A stretch of DNA of 60,033 nt from Ignavibacteriales bacterium (GTDB taxonomy: Bacteria > Bacteroidota > Ignavibacteria > Ignavibacteriales > Melioribacteraceae), in the NCBI GenBank assembly GCA_003599395.1, contig QZJX01000009.1:1-60033 (forward strand), written 5' to 3'. Made by a program: the position numbers and the translations under genes. How positions within the stretch are numbered: position 1 is the first letter of the stretch; each line of letters starts with the position of its first letter. Of the stretch, positions 1 through 30,101 are shown piece by piece. Under the pieces are notes generated by a model that saw nothing but the letters and a program-made list of their open reading frames with translations, was not told the DNA's origin and ran no database searches.

Positions 1-546
1 TTAATTGTAACAATTGCAATTATACAGTTGAATTCAATATACAATAATATATTCGAATTTGATTTTAGCGAGGTTGTGCTTCCCCCCGATCCACATGAAT
101 TTGTATCTGAGGTTGACAAACAAAACTTTGAATACATAAAAGATTACTTCGATAACGAATTCCGATCAAAATTTTTAGATTCAATTAAAGCCAATACTCT
201 TGTAAAGATTGACACAGTTTATCAGGAAATTTTAAAAGATGCCGCGTTAGCCGACAGTATAAAAAAACTGCAAAATGAATTAAGCACATTAAGAACACAA
301 GCTATACAAAAAGATACAACGAATAATGTGATTGTTAATAAAAATATTATTGATGAACAGTGGGCAAAAAAGACAGCAAAACTAATTGAATCCATGAACC
401 CAAAAAATGCTGCTAAAGTAATCCAAAATTATTCCGATAATGAAGCAAGAGAACTTATATACAAAATGAAACAAAGCAAAGCAGCAGCAATATTGTCACA
501 TTTAGATCCCAATTTTGTTAATAGAATAACCAAATCACAAATATGA
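1..546 (+). CDS. MotE-like flagellar protein with MgtE_N-type domain, 5' partial
   Basis: The reading frame is open from base 1, so the N-terminus lies upstream. The visible protein begins with a hydrophobic stretch (LIVTIAIIQL), probably the end of a membrane anchor. A charged, coiled-coil-prone middle follows, and the C-terminus has the repeat typical of MgtE N-terminal domains (ESMNPKNAAKVIQ... ILSHLDPNFVNRI). Membrane-anchored MgtE_N proteins in flagellar operons are called MotE and are thought to act in export or motor assembly as chaperone or scaffold. Its stop overlaps the fliK start (ATGA at 543-546), indicating translational coupling. The TTG at 28 is an internal codon rather than the start. 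The domain is fairly clear; the exact role is inferred. Confidence 0.7.
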   Translation, partial: LIVTIAIIQLNSIYNNIFEFDFSEVVLPPDPHEFVSEVDKQNFEYIKDYFDNEFRSKFLDSIKANTLVKIDTVYQEILKDAALADSIKKLQNELSTLRTQAIQKDTTNNVIVNKNIIDEQWAKKTAKLIESMNPKNAAKVIQNYSDNEARELIYKMKQSKAAAILSHLDPNFVNRITKSQI

Positions 547-3125
547 TATTTAATCCATTGTTCATAGATTCTGACACTAAGCAGATAAACCCGGTTGGTT
601 TTGGGAAGACTAATAGTACATATCTTTTTAAAGATATAATTAATGTCGCTAAAAACTTTTCTGCAGAAAGATCATTCAACTCTACTTCTATTCTATCAAA
701 TATTTTAAGTGATATTAAAGGGCTTATAAATTCTCCCGAAGATGCTGGAATTAAGCTTGATAATAAACTCAACTTATTATTGAATGAGTTGAATATCTCA
801 AGTGCAGTCAATCAAATTGGTTTTGATGATATATCAAATGATTTATTTAAAGAGTCAAGTATTATTTCCGGTTCACCAAAAGAAGTTACTGAATTAATCA
901 CCGAAGCTCTTAAAAAATTAGAAGAAGAATTTAAACTAGAAATTGTATTACCCAAAGACCTTCCCGGCGAAACGGAACAAGAATTATCTAACGAATCAAA
1001 TTTATCAGCACATATAGCTTCGCTTTTACTTTCTGATAAACCACTTACATTTCATATTCTACAAAACAATTCCGAAAACCTACTCACATTAAGTATTGAA
1101 AAGGTTCCTCAACAATCGATGGAAATGAAGTCCGGTAAATTTAATGTAACACTATTTTCAGTTACCTTGAATCAATCAGAAAGTGTTGAGCTACAAGAAT
1201 CTTCATTGGAGAAGTTTATTTCGAAAATCAATGCGAAAGAAGAAAATCCGGATATTAGACCAACTGATAATTCTAAACCAACAGTTGATAATAAACTCAT
1301 TAAAAATATAGATACACAACAAAATAACAACTCAAAGATTATCGAATCCCTCCAGACTAGCGAAAAAGATATTCCGGGTAAAAATATTGACCAAAAGATA
1401 AATTTAGTTCAAGAAAAACCTCTAACCCAAAGCGAAAATCAAAATCCATCGTATAAGGGAATTGATCTTTCAACTGTAAAAGAACTTGAAAAAAACTCTT
1501 TAAATAAAGGAATTAATTCTACAGAGGTTGAACAGAAAAAAGTCTTTGACTCAGCAATAAAGAGTGAAGCAGCAAATTCGAAAACAACAAATCAGAAAGC
1601 AGAAACAAATACAAAGATTAATGATGACGCCTCAACCAAATCCGAGAATCAAACAAAAATTACTAAGAATGATAGCCCGATTGTAAGAAATGAAGAAGCT
1701 TCGATGAAAATAAATTTAAATGGCGAAAGCACTCAAGTTAATAATCAAAAAGATTTACGTGTAGATTCCAAACCATTAAGCACAATTGAAGGTGATATAA
1801 AATCAGAGAACGATGTTAAGATTGAGAACCTCCCATTACATAACACAAATAAGCTAAATGATAATGACGGGAAATTAGTATCAAGCCATTCTGTGAATAA
1901 CGATGTTACGAAATTAAACTCAACAAAACATCAATTGGAAGCAAATTCTGAGATCTCTTATAAGAATGATTTATCAGAGGATAGCAATTTAGGTAATGAT
2001 GTTTTCGCTAAGAGAATCAATTCAGCTCAGAAGCATGAAACAAACAATGAAATTATAATCAAACTAGAGCCCAAGCAAGAAAAACAAATTGACGAATTCA
2101 ATAATAACGTTCGCAAAAATTTTGTTGAGAATATTGAAAAGATTATAACTGCCAACAAAACAAACTTTGTTAAAATAGATGAAAGTATTTTGGACAATAA
2201 AGAAGAGTTGACGTTAAAATTAAATCAGGTAATTAATTCAGACAATAGATTTGCTGATACGAAGAAAGAACCAAAAAATAATACAAAAGCAATCGATCAG
2301 ATCTCAGATATATTTAAAAAAGTTGAGCAGCGGTTGGAGAAAATAAATTTGAGTTCACAGTCAAATGCTCAAAGCAATACATTTTCGGAACACGAAATTT
2401 TAACGGGGAAGATTCGAGCTTCAAAACCGGAAGAAGTAGCAGGAATCAAGATTGATGAAAGTGATATGCGATTGAAGATTGATACACCTCAAAAAGATGC
2501 TGATTCCCCCGCTAATGAAAATAGTGGAAAAGAATCTAAAATAGTCGATTCCGACAGCAGGGATAAAAATGTATCTAAAAACAACACTGCACCAACTGAT
2601 ACTCAATCAACTAAGATTGACAATCCAGTTTCATTGAGTCAAAGCAATCGACAAGTAATTTCAGAAAATCAACCAAATAATTTTAACGAAGCGGTTCATG
2701 TTAGAACTAAAGAAATATTCCAACCGGAGTTAAATAAAAAACTTCTTAATGAAATTTCCAATATGGCGATTTCTGACAAGAAAGATAAAGCCATTATAAA
2801 TCTGGCTCCGGCAAAACTGGGTAAGATTAGAATTGCTTTGGAAATTATAGACAACAAACTTAACGCAAGATTGGAAGTTGAAAGTCAAGCCGCAAAAGAA
2901 ATGTTAACTAATCAAGTTGATTTCCTTAAAGAAAGTTTGAACAGCAATGGACTTCAACTAAATACTATTAACATCTCACTACAGAATTCTGATCAAAAAA
3001 ATAATAAAGCGGCTCGCGAAAAACGCAAAGATACAAATGTTGAAAAACTTGAATCCAAAGATAAAGGCAGTAAAGAGAATAAAACAAAAACCTTAGGTTA
3101 CAACACATACGAATTTATAGCATAG
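543..3125 (+). CDS. fliK: Flagellar hook-length control protein FliK (very long)
   Basis: FliK is the secreted ruler that measures hook length and switches export specificity through FlhB. The C-terminal ~100 residues match the Flg_hook domain (INLAPAKLGKIRIALEI, then a Gln/Asn-rich tail around LNTINISLQ). About 600 residues in the middle are low complexity, rich in Asn, Lys, Ser and Glu, as expected of an extended tether. At 860 residues it is about twice the enterobacterial FliK length. It starts in the ATGA overlap with the preceding gene and is followed 9 nt later by flgD, its usual neighbour. The C-terminal domain and context make the call firm; the middle shows no recognisable domain. 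Confidence 0.88.
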   Translation: MIFNPLFIDSDTKQINPVGFGKTNSTYLFKDIINVAKNFSAERSFNSTSILSNILSDIKGLINSPEDAGIKLDNKLNLLLNELNISSAVNQIGFDDISNDLFKESSIISGSPKEVTELITEALKKLEEEFKLEIVLPKDLPGETEQELSNESNLSAHIASLLLSDKPLTFHILQNNSENLLTLSIEKVPQQSMEMKSGKFNVTLFSVTLNQSESVELQESSLEKFISKINAKEENPDIRPTDNSKPTVDNKLIKNIDTQQNNNSKIIESLQTSEKDIPGKNIDQKINLVQEKPLTQSENQNPSYKGIDLSTVKELEKNSLNKGINSTEVEQKKVFDSAIKSEAANSKTTNQKAETNTKINDDASTKSENQTKITKNDSPIVRNEEASMKINLNGESTQVNNQKDLRVDSKPLSTIEGDIKSENDVKIENLPLHNTNKLNDNDGKLVSSHSVNNDVTKLNSTKHQLEANSEISYKNDLSEDSNLGNDVFAKRINSAQKHETNNEIIIKLEPKQEKQIDEFNNNVRKNFVENIEKIITANKTNFVKIDESILDNKEELTLKLNQVINSDNRFADTKKEPKNNTKAIDQISDIFKKVEQRLEKINLSSQSNAQSNTFSEHEILTGKIRASKPEEVAGIKIDESDMRLKIDTPQKDADSPANENSGKESKIVDSDSRDKNVSKNNTAPTDTQSTKIDNPVSLSQSNRQVISENQPNNFNEAVHVRTKEIFQPELNKKLLNEISNMAISDKKDKAIINLAPAKLGKIRIALEIIDNKLNARLEVESQAAKEMLTNQVDFLKESLNSNGLQLNTINISLQNSDQKNNKAAREKRKDTNVEKLESKDKGSKENKTKTLGYNTYEFIA

Positions 3126-3134
3126 AGGCTTATT

Positions 3135-3851
3135 ATGATTGATATACTTTCAAACAACTACAACACAAACACTCCGGTCTATGGACAGCAACAAGGTGTA
3201 CTTGGCAAAGATGATTTCATGAAATTGATGATACAGCAACTGAAACATCAAGATCCGTTAAGCCCCATGGAAAGTCAAGAATTTGCCGCTCAACTTGCTC
3301 AGTTTACATCACTTGAACAATTATCAAACCTCAATAGCAATGTGAGAGAAAGTATTGATGCTAATTATTTATTGTCCCAATCTATCAACAATACAATGAT
3401 GTCAACCCTGATCGGGAAAGATGTCAAATTCCAAAGCAATGTAATGGAAAATAAAGGTGACAATACTGTAAGTCTTGGCTACAATTTACCGGCAAATGCT
3501 ACTAATGTTAAAGTTAATATCTATGATGCAAACGGTAAAATAGTCCGCACGATAGAAAATGCAGGAAATACTCAAGGTGACCATAAACTTTCATGGGATT
3601 TTACCGATAATGAAGGTAACAAATTAGCAAATGGTAAATATACTTTTGAAGTAGAAGTAACAAATGGCGGAGAAACAAGCGTGAGTAACAATGTATTTCA
3701 ATATGGCTCTATAACCGGTGTTAGGTTCACTGAAAATGGAACTAAGATTTTAATAAACAATATTGAATACTTACTCTCGGATATTCTCGAAATACTTAAC
3801 CCAACTCAAATTACAAATAATGGAGGTTCGGAAGACGATGCCACAAATTAA
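3135..3851 (+). CDS. flgD: Flagellar hook capping/assembly protein FlgD
   Basis: FlgD is the scaffold cap that guides polymerisation of FlgE hook subunits. The N-terminus has the family signature (LGKDDFMKLMIQQLKHQDPL, then SQEFAAQLAQFTSLEQL). It is followed by a FlgD Ig-like/tudor-type region with the typical 'GDHKLSWDFTDNEGNKLANG' turn around residues 145-165. The length of 238 residues is normal. An AGAGG-like ribosome site precedes the ATG. The 3' end overlaps the next gene by 14 nt. Its position between fliK and flgE is the classic order. Confidence 0.95.
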   Translation: MIDILSNNYNTNTPVYGQQQGVLGKDDFMKLMIQQLKHQDPLSPMESQEFAAQLAQFTSLEQLSNLNSNVRESIDANYLLSQSINNTMMSTLIGKDVKFQSNVMENKGDNTVSLGYNLPANATNVKVNIYDANGKIVRTIENAGNTQGDHKLSWDFTDNEGNKLANGKYTFEVEVTNGGETSVSNNVFQYGSITGVRFTENGTKILINNIEYLLSDILEILNPTQITNNGGSEDDATN

Positions 3852-4212
3852 CGGTGTAAGTGTTCCTTTCGTCCCGATAATTGAAAATAATAACTTCGAT
3901 CGCTTTAACTCATCGAAAGAAGTCAGTTCAAAATTCAATGATCTTCTTAATGATGAGTTATCGAAACTGAAATTCTCAAGCCACGCAACAAAACGGCTTG
4001 AAGATAGGAACATTGTTCTAAGTAATGAAGAAATGGGAAAAATTAATGAAGCAGTTCAAAGAGCAGAAGACAAAGGCTCTAAAGATTCATTAGTGATGAT
4101 GAACGGAAATGCTTTCATTGTAAACATCCCAAACAAAACAGTGATCACAGCAATGCCTTTAGGTAGCAATGATAATGTTTTCACAAATATTGATAGTGTA
4201 GTTTTTGCTTAA
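3838..4212 (+). CDS. Flagellar operon protein, TIGR02530 (flg_new) type
   Basis: This is a 124-residue protein whose core (FSSHATKRLEDRNIVLS, then a helical stretch and 'SLVMMNGNAFIVNIPNKTVITAM') matches the small conserved family found between flgD and flgE in many flagellar operons. Its molecular role is unknown; it is presumed cytoplasmic. The ATG at 3838 is preferred because GGAGG lies about 11 nt upstream and the protein then starts MPQINGVSVPF, like homologues. A TTG at 3763 would add 25 residues that merely overlap flgD in another frame. No signal peptide or membrane segment is seen. Confidence 0.82.
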   Translation: MPQINGVSVPFVPIIENNNFDRFNSSKEVSSKFNDLLNDELSKLKFSSHATKRLEDRNIVLSNEEMGKINEAVQRAEDKGSKDSLVMMNGNAFIVNIPNKTVITAMPLGSNDNVFTNIDSVVFA

Positions 4213-4236
4213 AAAATAATTAAACAATAACAATAA

Positions 4237-4308
4237 AGAGCGGGACCTAATGAGGACGCTCTAACTCGGCCGACCGACTGACGCTGAGTAAAACAACCTT
4301 AGGAGGTT
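4237..4308 (+). promoter_or_regulatory. Structured GC-rich leader of flgE, possible RNA regulatory element
   Basis: This intergenic stretch is about 62% GC over 4238-4289 (32 of 52), far above its surroundings. Hairpin 1 pairs AGAGCG (4237-4242) with CGCTCT (4257-4262) around a 14-nt loop. Hairpin 2 pairs ACTCGGC (4264-4270) with GCTGAGT (4283-4289), with one G-U. Loop 1 contains CCTAA (4246-4250), complementary to TTAGG (4299-4303), which overlaps the flgE Shine-Dalgarno AGGAGG. Alternatively AACC (4295-4298) can pair with GGTT (4305-4308), placing the Shine-Dalgarno in a loop. The geometry suggests translational control of hook protein. I do not recognise a known riboswitch class, and folding was done by eye. 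Confidence 0.5.
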
Positions 4309-4312
4309 AAAA

Positions 4313-6019
4313 ATGGCACTTCTAAATTCACTTTTCGCTGGTGTATCCGGTTTAAGAAACCACCAATCAATGATGGACGTAATTGGTAACAATATTGCCA
4401 ACGTCAATACAATAGGTTACAAAGGTTCAAGAGTTACTTTCAGTGATACTTTTAATCAATTCGTAAAAGCCGGTACAAACCCAACCGAAAACACAGGCGG
4501 TACAAATACATTTCAAGTTGGTTTAGGTATGAAGATTAATTCAATCGATCGTAACTGGAATCAAGGTACATTTGAAAGAACAGGAATCACAACTGACTTA
4601 GCATTACAAGGTCCGGGAATGTTTGTTCTTAAGAGTAACGGAGAACAATTCTATTCACGTGCAGGCGCTTTCGTTTTTGATGCTGAAGGTAAATTGGTTA
4701 ATCCACAAAACGGAGCGATTGTTCAAGGTAAAATTGCAAACAGTGAAGGCGCAATACCTCCCGGAAACAATTTAGAAGATATTATAATCGACACAAACCA
4801 AAAATTACCAGCTGTCGCTACAAGTTTAATTAGCTGGGGCGGTAACTTAAAAAGTAATTCTGATTTAACTAGAAGTGAAAGCGTTATGATGCGCGGAAAT
4901 ATTCAGAATGACGGAACCTTAGATGGATCTTCCACAATGGTGTCCACAAAAGTTTATGATACTTTTGGTGAAGAATACAAACTAGAAGTAAAATACACAG
5001 AGACAGCTAATCCAAACGAATATGATATGACTTGGGAAGTTTTGGATGCAGACGGAAACTCAGTCGGTACTTCAGCAGCAGCAATTACTGTTGCATTTGT
5101 CGATGACGGTTCAGGTAATTTTGTAATGGATGATGCTTCAAAAGAAAAATTTGATCCTAATGCAGCAGGTTATGATGCAAACACATCAGTATCTTTCACA
5201 GGTGTCGGTGCAAACGCCGGTGATCTTCAATTTCAAATTGATGCTTCAACCACTTCAAACAATGCAAGCACTCAGACACTAAGTATTTCAGCTGATGGAA
5301 ATAGAACTCCAAATATAGTTTCCGGTTCGGTTACAGCATTTGATTCTCTCGGTAACTCACATCAATTGACTTTAAAATTCACAAAGATTAATACAAACGA
5401 ATGGGCTTGGACAGTAACCGTTCCCGGTACAAGCACTGCTGGTGGACAATCAACATCGACAAGCGGTACAATTGCATTTAATGCTGATGGTACATTGGAT
5501 CCTGCAAATATTTCACCAAATAATCCGCAATTCACATTCCAGCCTGATGGTGGTGCTAATCCTGTTGTAATCGACTTAAATTTCGGTAGCGGATTCTCAG
5601 GTGTTACTCAGACTTCATCTAGTTCGGTTGTTTCTGCATTGAGTCAAGACGGATCAGCTGCAGCATCACTTTCAAACTTAAACATCGATCAATACGGAAA
5701 TATAGTTGGTATTTTTTCAAATGGTAATTCTAGAACATTAGCGCAAATTATGGCTGCGACATTTACCAACCTAAACGGATTGATAAGTGTTGGTGATAAC
5801 ATGTACTCAGCATACGCAAACTCGGGTGAACCAAGAATCGGAAGTCTGGGTGAAGAAACAGGAACTACAGTTCAGTCCGGTGCGTTAGAACAATCAAATG
5901 TTGATCTTTCTGAAGAATTCACAAAAATGATCGTATCACAAAGAGGATTTCAAGCAAACGCCAGAGTAATAACTACCGCGGATAATCTTCTTCAAGAAAT
6001 AACTAATCTAATAAGATAA
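4313..6019 (+). CDS. flgE: Flagellar hook protein FlgE
   Basis: FlgE polymerises into the curved hook that links rod and filament. The N-terminus carries the rod/hook signature (SLFAGVSGLRNHQSMMDVIG, 'NNIANVNTIGYKGSR'). The C-terminus has the matching helix ('VDLSEEFTKMIVSQRGFQANARVI... LLQEITNLIR'). Between them are FlgE D1/D2-type beta domains rich in Ser, Thr, Gly and Asn. At 568 residues it is longer than enterobacterial FlgE (about 400), consistent with an extra outer domain. A strong AGGAGG lies 7 nt before the ATG, within a structured leader. Two terminators follow, so flgE ends this transcription unit. Confidence 0.97.
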   Translation: MALLNSLFAGVSGLRNHQSMMDVIGNNIANVNTIGYKGSRVTFSDTFNQFVKAGTNPTENTGGTNTFQVGLGMKINSIDRNWNQGTFERTGITTDLALQGPGMFVLKSNGEQFYSRAGAFVFDAEGKLVNPQNGAIVQGKIANSEGAIPPGNNLEDIIIDTNQKLPAVATSLISWGGNLKSNSDLTRSESVMMRGNIQNDGTLDGSSTMVSTKVYDTFGEEYKLEVKYTETANPNEYDMTWEVLDADGNSVGTSAAAITVAFVDDGSGNFVMDDASKEKFDPNAAGYDANTSVSFTGVGANAGDLQFQIDASTTSNNASTQTLSISADGNRTPNIVSGSVTAFDSLGNSHQLTLKFTKINTNEWAWTVTVPGTSTAGGQSTSTSGTIAFNADGTLDPANISPNNPQFTFQPDGGANPVVIDLNFGSGFSGVTQTSSSSVVSALSQDGSAAASLSNLNIDQYGNIVGIFSNGNSRTLAQIMAATFTNLNGLISVGDNMYSAYANSGEPRIGSLGEETGTTVQSGALEQSNVDLSEEFTKMIVSQRGFQANARVITTADNLLQEITNLIR

Positions 6020-6038
6020 TTTAAGTTAAGTCCATTAT

Positions 6039-6064
6039 AAGGAGAGATGAAATATTCTCTCCTT
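6039..6064 (+). terminator. Rho-independent terminator after flgE
   Basis: AAGGAGAGA (6039-6047) pairs perfectly with TCTCTCCTT (6056-6064) around an 8-nt AT loop. A T-rich tail (TTCATTTT) follows. It lies 20 nt after the flgE stop. Confidence 0.75.
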
Positions 6065-6077
6065 TTCATTTTGATCA

Positions 6078-6097
6078 AGTGGTTAATATCAGCCACT
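6078..6097 (+). terminator. Second, tandem terminator-like hairpin
   Basis: AGTGGTT (6078-6084) pairs with AGCCACT (6091-6097), with one G-U, around AATATC. A pyrimidine-rich run (CTTTTCTTCATTTTCC) follows. It would back up the terminator just upstream and insulate the fliL operon. Confidence 0.5.
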
Positions 6098-6145
6098 CTT
6101 TTCTTCATTTTCCTTCAAAAATCTAAATTTTCGAACTTTTTTCCA

Positions 6146-6161
6146 TGGCACAGCAGTTGAA
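6146..6161 (+). promoter_or_regulatory. Possible sigma-54-type promoter for the fliL operon
   Basis: TGGCAC-N5-TTGAA differs from the sigma-54 consensus TGGCAC-N5-TTGCA at one base. It lies between the flgE terminators and fliL, where a promoter is needed. Predicted transcription would begin only about 4 nt before the fliL ATG at 6176, implying an almost leaderless mRNA, and no Shine-Dalgarno is seen there. This short spacing lowers confidence. No sigma-54 activator gene is in the window. Confidence 0.35.
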
Positions 6162-6175
6162 ATTAAATAGATACT

Positions 6176-6742
6176 ATGGAACCAAAAGAAAAAAACTTAG
6201 ACGAAAATTTAGAGGAAATAACTTCCACACCGGAAGTTAAACCAAAATCTAAATTCAATCCAAAAATCTTGATTTTCGGATTGCCCCTTTTTGTACTTCA
6301 ATTAATAGTTGTGTATTTCATAACCGCAAACATCTTAATCAAAAAGATGGATGGAAGAACTCCCGAGAAAACCGCAACTGAAGCTGTAGCGGAATCACCG
6401 GCGGAAGCTGAGGAAGAAGACACAACCATGAATCATTTTGGTGAATATATTTTTCAAATAGAGGACATAATTGTAAACCCGGCTTATACCAAAGGCGAGC
6501 AGTTACTTCTATCTTCTGTTGCGTTCGATGTACCAACTGAAGTTACAAGAAAAGAACTTGAGAAAAAACAAATTCTGGTTAAGGATATGATTATCTCAAT
6601 CCTTTCCAGCAAGACGATTAACCAACTCAGTAACGTAACTTATAAAGACACTTTAAGAGTTGAAATCACCAATAAGTTACAAAGCAGTTTTAGTGAAATG
6701 AAAATTAACAGAGTTTATTTCAGTAAATATATAATCAACTAA
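6176..6742 (+). CDS. fliL: Flagellar basal body-associated protein FliL
   Basis: FliL is a single-pass inner membrane protein that surrounds and stabilises the stator around the rod. Residues ~1-27 are charged and cytoplasmic. A transmembrane helix follows (ILIFGLPLFVLQLIVVYFIT, about 31-50), then a Glu/Ala-rich linker and a periplasmic FliL domain ('YIFQIEDIIVNPAYTKGEQLLLSSVAFDV', later 'LRVEITNKL'). The length of 188 residues is typical. No ribosome site is obvious before the ATG. It is first in a long run of export and switch genes and is separated from fliM by 5 nt. Confidence 0.88.
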   Translation: MEPKEKNLDENLEEITSTPEVKPKSKFNPKILIFGLPLFVLQLIVVYFITANILIKKMDGRTPEKTATEAVAESPAEAEEEDTTMNHFGEYIFQIEDIIVNPAYTKGEQLLLSSVAFDVPTEVTRKELEKKQILVKDMIISILSSKTINQLSNVTYKDTLRVEITNKLQSSFSEMKINRVYFSKYIIN

Positions 6743-6747
6743 AAACT

Positions 6748-7716
6748 ATGGCTGAAGTACTAAATCAACAAGAAATTGATAATCTGCTAAACAACGTCAA
6801 AAGCGGAACGGAAGAAAAAAACGATTCGTTCGAACAAAAAGAAGCTGTTCCTTTTGACTTTCGTTTACCAAATAGAATATCAAAGCATCAATTAAGAACC
6901 ATCACAAACATTCACGAAAATTTTGCCGAAAGTTTGAGTTCATTTTTAGTTTCAAAACTTCAGACATTGGTATCAACATCCGTAGCTTCTGTAGATCAGC
7001 TATATTATTCGGAATATGTTCTATCGGTATCCAATCCCTCTTGTTTGTTCACCTTTGATATTAGAAATACGGATATAAAAGGAATTTTAGAATTCAGTCC
7101 CGAATTAGCTTTGGTACTTGTTGATCGCTTACTCGGTGGCAGTGGCGAAGGTAAAAAAGAATCGAAGATCATTACTCCTATAGAACAAAAAGTTCTAAAC
7201 GTTGTTGTTGAAAGTGCGATGGTAAATTTGACAAAAGCATGGAGCGTTGTTGATAAATTAGATTTTGCGGTTGATAGATTTGAACCCGATATAGACTTCG
7301 CACAAATAACGTCACAAAATGAATCAGTTTTACTTATTTCATTTGAAGTAATGATAGGTGAAGAAAGTCATTTTATGAATTTGTGTTTTGCGACTTTCTC
7401 TTTCGATAGAATTCTTGCAAAACTAGCTTCACAAAAGTTTTCATCAATTAGACCCACGGATTATCATGGTTCAACTTCACGTGAAGTAATTTCTAAGAGC
7501 TTATTATATGCAGAAGTTCCTTTAAAAATCGAACTTGGTAAATCATCAATTTCAGTTGCAGAGTTTATGAACTTAGAAGTCGGCGATATAATCAACTTGA
7601 ACAAAAAAATATCCGATAACTGTGAAGTAAAAATGGAAAATAAAGTTATTGGCTACGGCCGACCCGGATTAGTTAATAAGCGTAAAGCCATAAAGATCAT
7701 TCAAAAATTAATATAA
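6748..7716 (+). CDS. fliM: Flagellar motor switch protein FliM
   Basis: FliM is the C-ring protein that binds phospho-CheY and, with FliG and FliN, sets rotation direction. The N-terminal CheY-binding motif is present (LNQQEIDNLLN, residues 5-15). The middle CheC-like domain contains 'VLVDRLLGGSGEGKKESK'. The C-terminus is the FliN-like SpoA domain ('LEVGDIINLNKKISDNCEVKMENKVIGYGRPG'). At 322 residues the length is standard. It lies directly ahead of fliN. An intact CheY-binding peptide implies the motor is under classical CheY control, although no cheY or cheA gene is in this window. Confidence 0.96.
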   Translation: MAEVLNQQEIDNLLNNVKSGTEEKNDSFEQKEAVPFDFRLPNRISKHQLRTITNIHENFAESLSSFLVSKLQTLVSTSVASVDQLYYSEYVLSVSNPSCLFTFDIRNTDIKGILEFSPELALVLVDRLLGGSGEGKKESKIITPIEQKVLNVVVESAMVNLTKAWSVVDKLDFAVDRFEPDIDFAQITSQNESVLLISFEVMIGEESHFMNLCFATFSFDRILAKLASQKFSSIRPTDYHGSTSREVISKSLLYAEVPLKIELGKSSISVAEFMNLEVGDIINLNKKISDNCEVKMENKVIGYGRPGLVNKRKAIKIIQKLI

Positions 7717-7734
7717 AGTAAGAGTGGTAATAAA

Positions 7735-8106
7735 ATGGAAGATAAAACAACAAAACCCGAATCAGAAAAAAGTGTAAATCCATCAGTAGAAACTCAAGCA
7801 GCCGTTTTTGACGAGTTTGATGAATCGACAAAGAAAACATTCGGTGAAAACAAACTGGACTTTCTGCAAGATCTGCAGCTTAATGTATTTATTGAACTGG
7901 GTAGAACAAAAATGCAGATCAAAGATATTCTAGAATTAGAACGCGGTTACGTAATTGAACTTGATAAGATGGCAAGTGAACCGGTTGATATCTACGTAAA
8001 CAACAAAAAAATTGCAGAAGGCGAAGTTGTTGTGATCGATAAGCATTTCGGAATTCGCATTACTAACCTAAGCCAACCGGCAGAAAGATTAAAAGGATTG
8101 TATTAA
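7735..8106 (+). CDS. fliN: Flagellar motor switch protein FliN
   Basis: FliN forms the base of the C-ring and docks the export ATPase complex. The protein has a short acidic N-terminal extension (~40 residues) followed by a complete SpoA domain: 'NVFIELGRTKMQIKDILELERG', 'DIYVNNKKIAEGEVVVID' and 'FGIRITNLSQPAERL'. The length of 123 residues is normal. The ATG follows a weak GTAAGAG-type ribosome site. Its TAA shares one base with the next ATG (TAATG at 8104-8108), so it is coupled to fliO. Confidence 0.96.
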   Translation: MEDKTTKPESEKSVNPSVETQAAVFDEFDESTKKTFGENKLDFLQDLQLNVFIELGRTKMQIKDILELERGYVIELDKMASEPVDIYVNNKKIAEGEVVVIDKHFGIRITNLSQPAERLKGLY

Positions 8107-28732: not shown

Positions 28733-29116
28733 ATGAAAATAACTAACAAACAGTTCGGAGAATTTGAATTCTCCAAAGAAAATATACTTCATTTCAAGAA
28801 TGGTTTATTCGGTTTTGAAGAGTATAAAAGTTTTCTTCTAATCAAAAGTGAAAACGATTTATTCTTTTGGCTTAATTCGGTTGATCAACCCGAATTAATT
28901 TTCCCGCTTGTGGGTTTAAGAGTTATTGATGATTCTTATCCACAAAATGACGAAACCGAAGCATTTGGGATTGTTACTTTAAATAGCGATCCAAATAATA
29001 CAACGGTAAATCTTAAAGCACCCGTTTACATAAATCAAGATAAGAAAGAAGGTTTTCAAACCATCATTGATCATGATAAGTATATGGTTAATTATAAATT
29101 ATTTGTTGAAGATTGA
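28733..29116 (+). CDS. fliW: Flagellar assembly factor FliW
   Basis: FliW binds flagellin and, when free, sequesters CsrA allosterically, coupling flagellin translation to export. The 127-residue protein has family motifs 'GLFGFEEYKSFLLIKSEND', 'FFWLNSVDQPELIFPLV' and 'NPNNTTVNLKAPVYIN' (here DPNNTTVNLKAPVYI). It has a ribosome site (TAGAAAGAAA) and is followed 9 nt later by csrA, the diagnostic pairing. Confidence 0.95.
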   Translation: MKITNKQFGEFEFSKENILHFKNGLFGFEEYKSFLLIKSENDLFFWLNSVDQPELIFPLVGLRVIDDSYPQNDETEAFGIVTLNSDPNNTTVNLKAPVYINQDKKEGFQTIIDHDKYMVNYKLFVED

Positions 29117-29125
29117 GAGAAGACA

Positions 29126-29377
29126 ATGCTTGTACTTAATAGAAAACCAGGCGAAGAAATTCGAATAGGAAGTGATATTCTTATTAAAATAATTTCTTCA
29201 GCTGACGGAAATGTGAAAATCGGAATTGATGCACCACAAGATGTTGCAATACTTCGCGGTGAATTATATCAAAATGTTAAAGAAAGTGTGATCAAAGCTT
29301 CAGAAGAAAGTTACAAACCATTATCCGAAGCTAAATCACTTACAATTAATAAGTTAAGAGATACAGATAATGAATGA
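29126..29377 (+). CDS. csrA: Carbon storage regulator CsrA
   Basis: CsrA is an RNA-binding translational regulator that represses flagellin mRNA in FliW-containing bacteria. The 83-residue sequence is typical: 'MLVLNRKPGEEIRIGSDILI', 'VKIGIDAPQDVAILRGELYQ' with the key Arg in the last beta strand. The C-terminal tail is slightly extended, as in FliW-partnered CsrA. It overlaps the next gene by 8 nt, tying this switch to the stator/signalling operon. Flagellin, its expected target, lies outside the window. Confidence 0.97.
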   Translation: MLVLNRKPGEEIRIGSDILIKIISSADGNVKIGIDAPQDVAILRGELYQNVKESVIKASEESYKPLSEAKSLTINKLRDTDNE

Positions 29378-30101
29378 GCCTGCTGAAAAACTAAAAATTT
29401 TAGTAGTGGATGATTCCGATTTAATTCTGCACGCACTAAAAAATTTCTTTCGTGAATATAATCTCGAAGTAATTACTTGTCATGATGGGCTTGAAGGTAT
29501 TCAGCAAGCAATGGAAACCAGACCGACTCTCATCATACTGGATTTAATGATGCCGAATTTAGACGGTGTTAAGATGTTAAATGTCATCAAACTGATGAAA
29601 GAACTCAAGGATATTCCGGTTATTGTAATAAGTGGCAATACAAATAAACGAAATGTTATAGCAGCGATTGAAGCCGGAGCCGAAAAAGTTTTATCAAAAC
29701 CACTTAAGAAAGAATTGCTAAAGAAAAGCATCTCGGAAGTATTGGATCCGGAGTTTCTCAAGAATGCAAAGAAACCAGAGCAAAAAATCGATTTGAACAA
29801 AGAAGATCAAGAATTCATAAATGAACTACGTCAATATTTTTTGAATGGATTTAATTCAAAAGTTGAATTGATGGAATCTGTTTTTAGAAAAGAAGATATG
29901 GATAATCTTCGATTTGTCTTCCACGAATTAAAAGGAACCGGTTCAACAATTGGCTCACCCGAACTTACTCAAATAGGATTGGAAGTTGAGCAAAAAGTTG
30001 ATGAAAAGATTAAGGATTGGAATTACTATAAACAAAGATGGGATGAAGTACTGGAAATAGTTAAAGAAATTAAAAAAGAACAAGTCTCTTTGGAAGATTA
30101 A
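29370..30101 (+). CDS. Response regulator receiver fused to Hpt domain
   Basis: Residues 7-125 form a receiver with acidic pair D14/D15, phospho-acceptor D58 ('LIILDLMMPNLDG') and K110. Residues ~145-240 form a helical Hpt-like domain with candidate phospho-His H185 in 'RFVFHELKGTGSTIG'. The protein could pass phosphate between receivers and kinases. There is no DNA-binding domain. It overlaps csrA by 8 nt and motA2 by 1 nt, so it belongs to the csrA-motA2-motB2 operon. The partner is not identifiable from sequence; the kinases nearby are candidates. Confidence 0.87.
   Translation: MNEPAEKLKILVVDDSDLILHALKNFFREYNLEVITCHDGLEGIQQAMETRPTLIILDLMMPNLDGVKMLNVIKLMKELKDIPVIVISGNTNKRNVIAAIEAGAEKVLSKPLKKELLKKSISEVLDPEFLKNAKKPEQKIDLNKEDQEFINELRQYFLNGFNSKVELMESVFRKEDMDNLRFVFHELKGTGSTIGSPELTQIGLEVEQKVDEKIKDWNYYKQRWDEVLEIVKEIKKEQVSLED

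Follow-up and report, generated by a model that had tools for sequence, protein, structure and literature searches.

Two structured RNA motifs associated with flagellar genes, Termite-flg and flg-Rhizobiales, have been named (PMC2864571). Termite-flg (RF01729), known only from the termite gut, is presumed to sit in flagellar gene leaders, while flg-Rhizobiales (RF01736), a probable cis-regulatory RNA next to flagellar genes, is restricted to Rhizobiales. Post-transcriptional control of a flagellar axial subunit is described for the CsrA-FliW-Hag module acting on the hag leader of Bacillus subtilis, which combines an RNA site at the ribosome site with a small protein encoded with the flagellar genes (PMC6529632). 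Here we analyze a two-hairpin RNA preceding the flagellar hook gene flgE of an Ignavibacteriales bacterium (class Ignavibacteria; assembly GCA_003599395.1), within the first 60,033 nucleotides of contig QZJX01000009.1 (the window). A similar arrangement of RNA site and co-encoded small protein is proposed for this locus, which differs from the Bacillus module in having two hairpins with fixed internal and terminal loops and in concerning the hook, not the filament. At odds of roughly one in two, the element is a cis-acting structured RNA of a new class, one that governs flgE translation and is most likely read by the product of the adjoining gene, a flagellar protein of the TIGR02530 family.

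The element occupies positions 4238-4289, between the TIGR02530 gene and flgE (Table 1). Its 52 nucleotides include 32 G or C (62%), and the GC island with two hairpins, H1 and H2, that the initial annotation had described is confirmed. The surrounding 106-nt stretch folds better than all 200 of its dinucleotide shuffles (z -3.5). Using the FlgE protein as query identified 76 loci, of which 57 have these same two hairpins directly 5' of flgE. When 39 leaders were aligned with MAFFT without fitting to a model, 98.4% of cells were paired and both partners had changed in 11 of 16 pairs, exceeding all 500 shuffles; when the partner is shifted by one base, pairing falls to 45-47%. Covariance modelling in three rounds brought the collection to 93 sequences, 92 of them distinct. 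In the final alignment, which is fitted to the model and so is a less fair test than the 39-leader one (both ignore phylogeny), 97.2% of cells are paired, 15 of 16 pairs show both-side changes (7/8 in H1 and 8/8 modelled pairs in H2), and the covariation score is matched by none of 500 shuffles. A conserved structured RNA before flgE is thus almost certain: many genera share a covarying structure in the 5' leader of the same gene, the pattern of a cis-regulatory structured leader. The initial annotation had named a lack of covarying pairs, or absence from close relatives, as grounds for dropping such a leader, and neither was found.

That annotation recognized no known RNA class, and the comparison with Rfam agrees. 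No family of release 15 reaches its gathering threshold in the 60-kb window, and scans at E up to 10, covering the window and distant clades, return chance-level rows only. A literature search turned up no RNA in the flgE leaders of this group; the motifs of a 2017 survey (224 candidate RNAs) were compared only through Rfam. A divergent member of Termite-flg, a motif found upstream of flagellar genes in termite gut metagenomes, would share the gene class and the listing as cis-regulatory (PMC2864571), but RF01729 gives no match at E up to 10 in the window or in several clades, and this assignment appears highly improbable. The flg-Rhizobiales model likewise finds nothing here. An intrinsic terminator was also considered and rejected, as neither H1 nor H2 is followed by a U-run.

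The most constant parts of the element are its loops. In the 93 sequences, the 5' side of the H1 internal loop is GGA in 71, GGC in 17, and GGU in five, and the opposite position is A in 79 and G in 14. The H2 loop (consensus NGANNGANNGAN) is 12 nt long in 92 of 93 members and follows the pattern N-G-A-N-N-G-A-C-N-G-A-N, with GA at positions 2-3, 6-7, and 10-11 in 97-100%. The remainder is loosely constrained: the H1 upper stem may be as short as 3 bp, capped by a tetraloop, or extend into a long hairpin, and the H1-H2 linker spans 0 to 21-23 nt. Near-fixed loops on drifting stems look like a recognized binding site. Flanking strings are shared as well. AACTTAA between H2 and the Shine-Dalgarno (SD) sequence and TTAATTAAC 5' of H1 are common to many leaders of the window's order, and five Calditrichota/KSB1 leaders have an additional conserved string, TCAAGGATGA, in the H2-to-SD interval.

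The distribution of the element was assessed in 294 genomes of the class, using the covariance model R3 genome-wide at E <= 0.1. Matches were found in 94 genomes from 54 genera, nearly always as one copy per genome. The TIGR02530 family is present in 107 genomes and flgE in 115, and all 94 matching genomes have both. In the remaining 13 TIGR02530 genomes, a match was found downstream of the TIGR02530 gene when the flgE leader was scanned alone (E 1e-8 to 0.042), so that the two scans combined place the element before flgE in 107 of 107 TIGR02530 genomes. Among these 13 leader-only matches, H1 is kept and H2 has decayed in G179 and G221, and H2 is doubtful in G111. Leaders of genus g116 (L168 and L176) keep H1 before flgE while H2 has decayed, a natural test of which hairpin matters. 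Weak matches of the earlier model R1 in three genomes lay outside flagellar loci and disappeared with R3; they were discarded as false positives.

Eight class genomes encode FlgE without a TIGR02530 match. In five of them, four from one genus (G233, G244, G256, and G274) and one from another family (G271), flgD abuts flgE, and both the TIGR02530 gene and the element are absent. In G143 the element is present, together with the end of a TIGR02530 frame at the contig edge. Two more, G207 (contig edge) and G027 (broken flgE), are uninformative. The co-loss supports a functional TIGR02530-element pair without proving it, because a single deletion could remove both. Outside the class, the model matches 24 of the 40 genomes grouped around a Calditrichota locus (the Calditrichota/KSB1 group), and the order TIGR02530, element, flgE is found in 10 of 11 inspected loci, the eleventh having no visible TIGR02530 motif. 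The flgE leaders of Thermotogae and Kiloniella, which have no adjoining TIGR02530 gene, lack the element, and a search for TIGR02530 relatives in viral contigs and plasmids found none. Thus a well-supported RNA family missing from Rfam 15 is present in 107 TIGR02530-bearing genomes of the class and in further phyla.

Intercistronic hairpins can protect downstream mRNA. Passive processing or stability hairpins, or a translation enhancer that raises FlgE over the single-copy proteins of the same operon without a bound regulator, would suit the position of the element inside an operon, before the sole subunit needed in more than 100 copies. Such hairpins need no invariant loops, however, whereas here the loops are near-fixed and the stems drift, and the strict tie to TIGR02530 would be left unexplained; we regard this explanation as unlikely.

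A few genomes contain a second copy of the element. It lies 5' of flagellin in two genomes, 5' of fliK in one, and in another 5' of a 995-aa surface-protein-like open reading frame (G203:C28:98510), downstream of a sigma-28-like promoter box. No further extra copies came up in a sensitive scan of 39 near relatives. The additional copies suggest that the element can be transferred to other genes of axial structure or length control, as would suit a reader acting in trans. The flagellin genes with the flgE-type element in their leaders belong to two genera (L110 and L114). The 995-aa frame has a short non-secretory start followed by a signal peptide-like stretch. In the window's own genome, two near-identical tandem flagellin genes have identical leaders with a sigma-28-like TAAA-N15-TGCGATAA box and a CsrA-type hairpin; the flgE element is absent from them.

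CsrA is the obvious candidate regulator. It could bind both GGA motifs in H1 together with AGGAGG at the ribosome site, as in the Bacillus flagellin leader, with FliW as antagonist. A fliW-like gene is followed directly by csrA in the flagellar region of the window (28733-29384), GGA occurs in H1 of most members, the genome's own flagellin leader carries a typical-looking hairpin, GGC-AAGGAA-GCC, and CsrA tracks flagella across the class (113 genomes with a CsrA match). The features of the element point elsewhere. The GGA of H1 is replaced by GGC or GGU in 22 of 93 members, the 3' GGA sits in a paired strand, and three loci have GGA on neither side, so that unpaired GGA in hairpin loops combined with GGA at the SD, as expected of a CsrA target, was not found; the GA-repeat loop of H2 is not explained by CsrA either. 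Further, the presence of CsrA is neither needed nor sufficient for that of the element: four genomes (G152, G162, G278, and G285) have TIGR02530 and the element with no CsrA match, while G244, G256, G271, and G274 have CsrA and flgE without TIGR02530 and the element. Control by CsrA is therefore quite improbable, and the element would point to an mRNA-level control of the hook, separate from the known CsrA control of flagellin.

The element probably acts in cis on the translation of flgE. In the clades beyond the window's order, the SD, (AC)GGAGGG, has its complement in the 3' H1 strand plus linker, CCCUCC(GU), and none of 5000 between-species permutations gives complementarity as good. The junction and the SD covary, for instance CCCCC with GGGGG in L051, L118, and L121, CCUCAAA with UUUGAGG in L164, and CCUCCAA with UUGGAGG in L134. 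Because the SD pairing uses the lower H1 strand, a closed H1 and a masked SD are mutually exclusive; in L119 and L164 the predicted fold of lowest energy has the SD masked. Competing folds around the ribosome site, as the initial annotation had suspected, are supported in these clades, but no conserved switch was seen in the window's order. The particular pairing it proposed, between CCTAA in the loop of H1 and TTAGG overlapping the SD, did not survive comparison. Both strings are present (4246-4250 and 4299-4303), but CCU forms the 5' strand of the upper H1 helix, not the loop, and is paired in nearly all relatives. Of 37 leaders of the order, just two, those of the window and L001, offer at least five matching bases between loop 1 and the SD; 1299 of 3000 permutations across species do at least as well; and nested folding, which is blind to pseudoknots, gives the pairing an ensemble probability of 0. 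The AACC/GGTT hairpin around the SD fared better: it is present, and the order's leaders are enriched in such local hairpins (matched by 17 of 2000 re-deals), but in the window itself its probability is 0.001 with the coding sequence included, because the SD then pairs with codons 3-6. A platform that varies between clades under a constant pair of hairpins would be typical of leader regulation.

Two conserved unpaired surfaces, and mutually exclusive SD folds in other clades, would also be expected of a metabolite riboswitch with H1 and H2 folding jointly around a ligand such as a cyclic dinucleotide, a class of molecules that commonly targets motility. No riboswitch family matches beyond weak, chance-level rows, the lengths of the linker and of the H1 upper stem differ greatly among members, unlike those of most compact aptamers, and the element nearly always precedes one gene per genome; a riboswitch is accordingly a distinctly unlikely explanation. 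The comparative data favor a protein partner encoded next door over a metabolite, since the element keeps to a single gene order and accompanies the TIGR02530 gene, not a metabolic regulon.

A literature search found no described function for TIGR02530, and a sequence search of the PDB with this protein gave nothing significant and no solved relative. An AlphaFold model built from 92 window and locus sequences has a predicted local distance difference test score (pLDDT) of 85. In VIA-align, which carries the warning that Z values of this size are common, the top 17 rows are all of RelE/ParE/HigB/RelBE type (Z 4.7-5.8, residues about 40-115), with Z 5.8-5.4 for structures such as 9g12, 3kxe, and 5jaa. 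Weak matches to Pfam DUF4258 were found in 62 of 92 relatives (best E 0.001). The model offers the lead that the C-terminal two thirds of TIGR02530 adopt a RelE/ParE/HigB-like fold, with a moderate resemblance. Several members of this superfamily act on mRNA. TIGR02530 differs from them in its identity under 20% and its place in a core flagellar operon, and no antitoxin gene was seen between flgD and flgE.

Combining these observations, we propose that the new RNA class acts as follows. Since the element lies within the operon, it would act on an internal cistron, flgE, whose translation would be set by the leader RNA. The H1 internal loop (GG[A/C/U]/A) and the GA-repeat H2 loop would form two recognition surfaces held in place by freely varying stems, and the reader would be the predicted RelE/ParE-like protein from the gene directly upstream. 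That TIGR02530 reads the element is about as plausible as not, with the balance slightly on the negative side. Outside the window's order, many clades could instead have the SD masked by the 3' H1 strand together with the linker; binding would stabilize H1, free the SD, and turn flgE on. We advance this role of H1 closure as an on-switch tentatively. In the window's order, any masking of the SD would occur through the local SD hairpin. Comparison supports the structure with its conservation and placement, the alternative fold of other clades, and the shared presence and loss with TIGR02530, while translation as the level of control, its direction, and binding by TIGR02530 are inferences. It is conceivable, if rather speculative, that a RelE-fold protein, of the type found among toxins that target mRNA, has been tamed into a flagellar assembly regulator that binds or cuts a dedicated two-hairpin operator on the hook mRNA and gates hook synthesis, forming a distinct system conserved in Ignavibacteria-type Bacteroidota, Calditrichota, and KSB1. 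The proposal gives TIGR02530, a protein family of flagellar operons, a concrete testable function.

Several observations weigh against this proposal. The co-occurrence of neighboring genes can reflect shared ancestry, and a single deletion may account for their joint loss. Flagellin genes seldom carry an extra copy, leaving a regulon of mostly one gene. The Z values for the fold stay below 6, a shared fold shows no function, and Foldseek found no significant match for the TIGR02530 model, the best being a CdiA toxin at E 0.12. For the window's order, pairing between junction and SD is absent (4640 of 5000 permutations are as good), and the element barely alters the predicted SD accessibility (0.19 vs 0.21).

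Table 1. Coordinates of the element and of the adjoining genes in the window
Feature	Position	Strand	Sequence or evidence
flgD	3135-3851
TIGR02530-family flagellar protein gene, 124 aa	3838-4212	+	NCBIfam TIGR02530, E 3.1e-31, above cut-off
Hairpin H1	4238-4261	+	Covariance model match 1.2e-10 in own genome
H1 lower stem	4238-4242/4257-4261		GAGCG/CGCUC, 5 bp
H1 asymmetric 3x1 internal loop	4243-4245/4256		GGA/A
H1 upper stem	4246-4248/4253-4255		CCU/AGG, closing loop AAUG
Hairpin H2	4264-4289	+	Stem ACUCGGC/GCUGAGU
H2 12-nt loop	4271-4282		CGACCGACUGAC
Local 5-bp self-complementary SD hairpin	4295-4308	+	AACCUUAGGAGGUU
Shine-Dalgarno sequence	4301-4306	+	AGGAGG
flgE, flagellar hook protein gene, 568 aa	4313-6019	+	FlgE and FlgE_D2 families

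The locus (28-8106) has the order MgtE_N/FlbB-like gene, fliK, flgD, TIGR02530, element, flgE, fliL, fliM-like, and fliN-like, where the fliM and fliN labels rest on position and sequence. The product of the gene ahead of fliK (28-546) is MgtE_N/FliG-like and shows a weak similarity to the collar protein FlbB.
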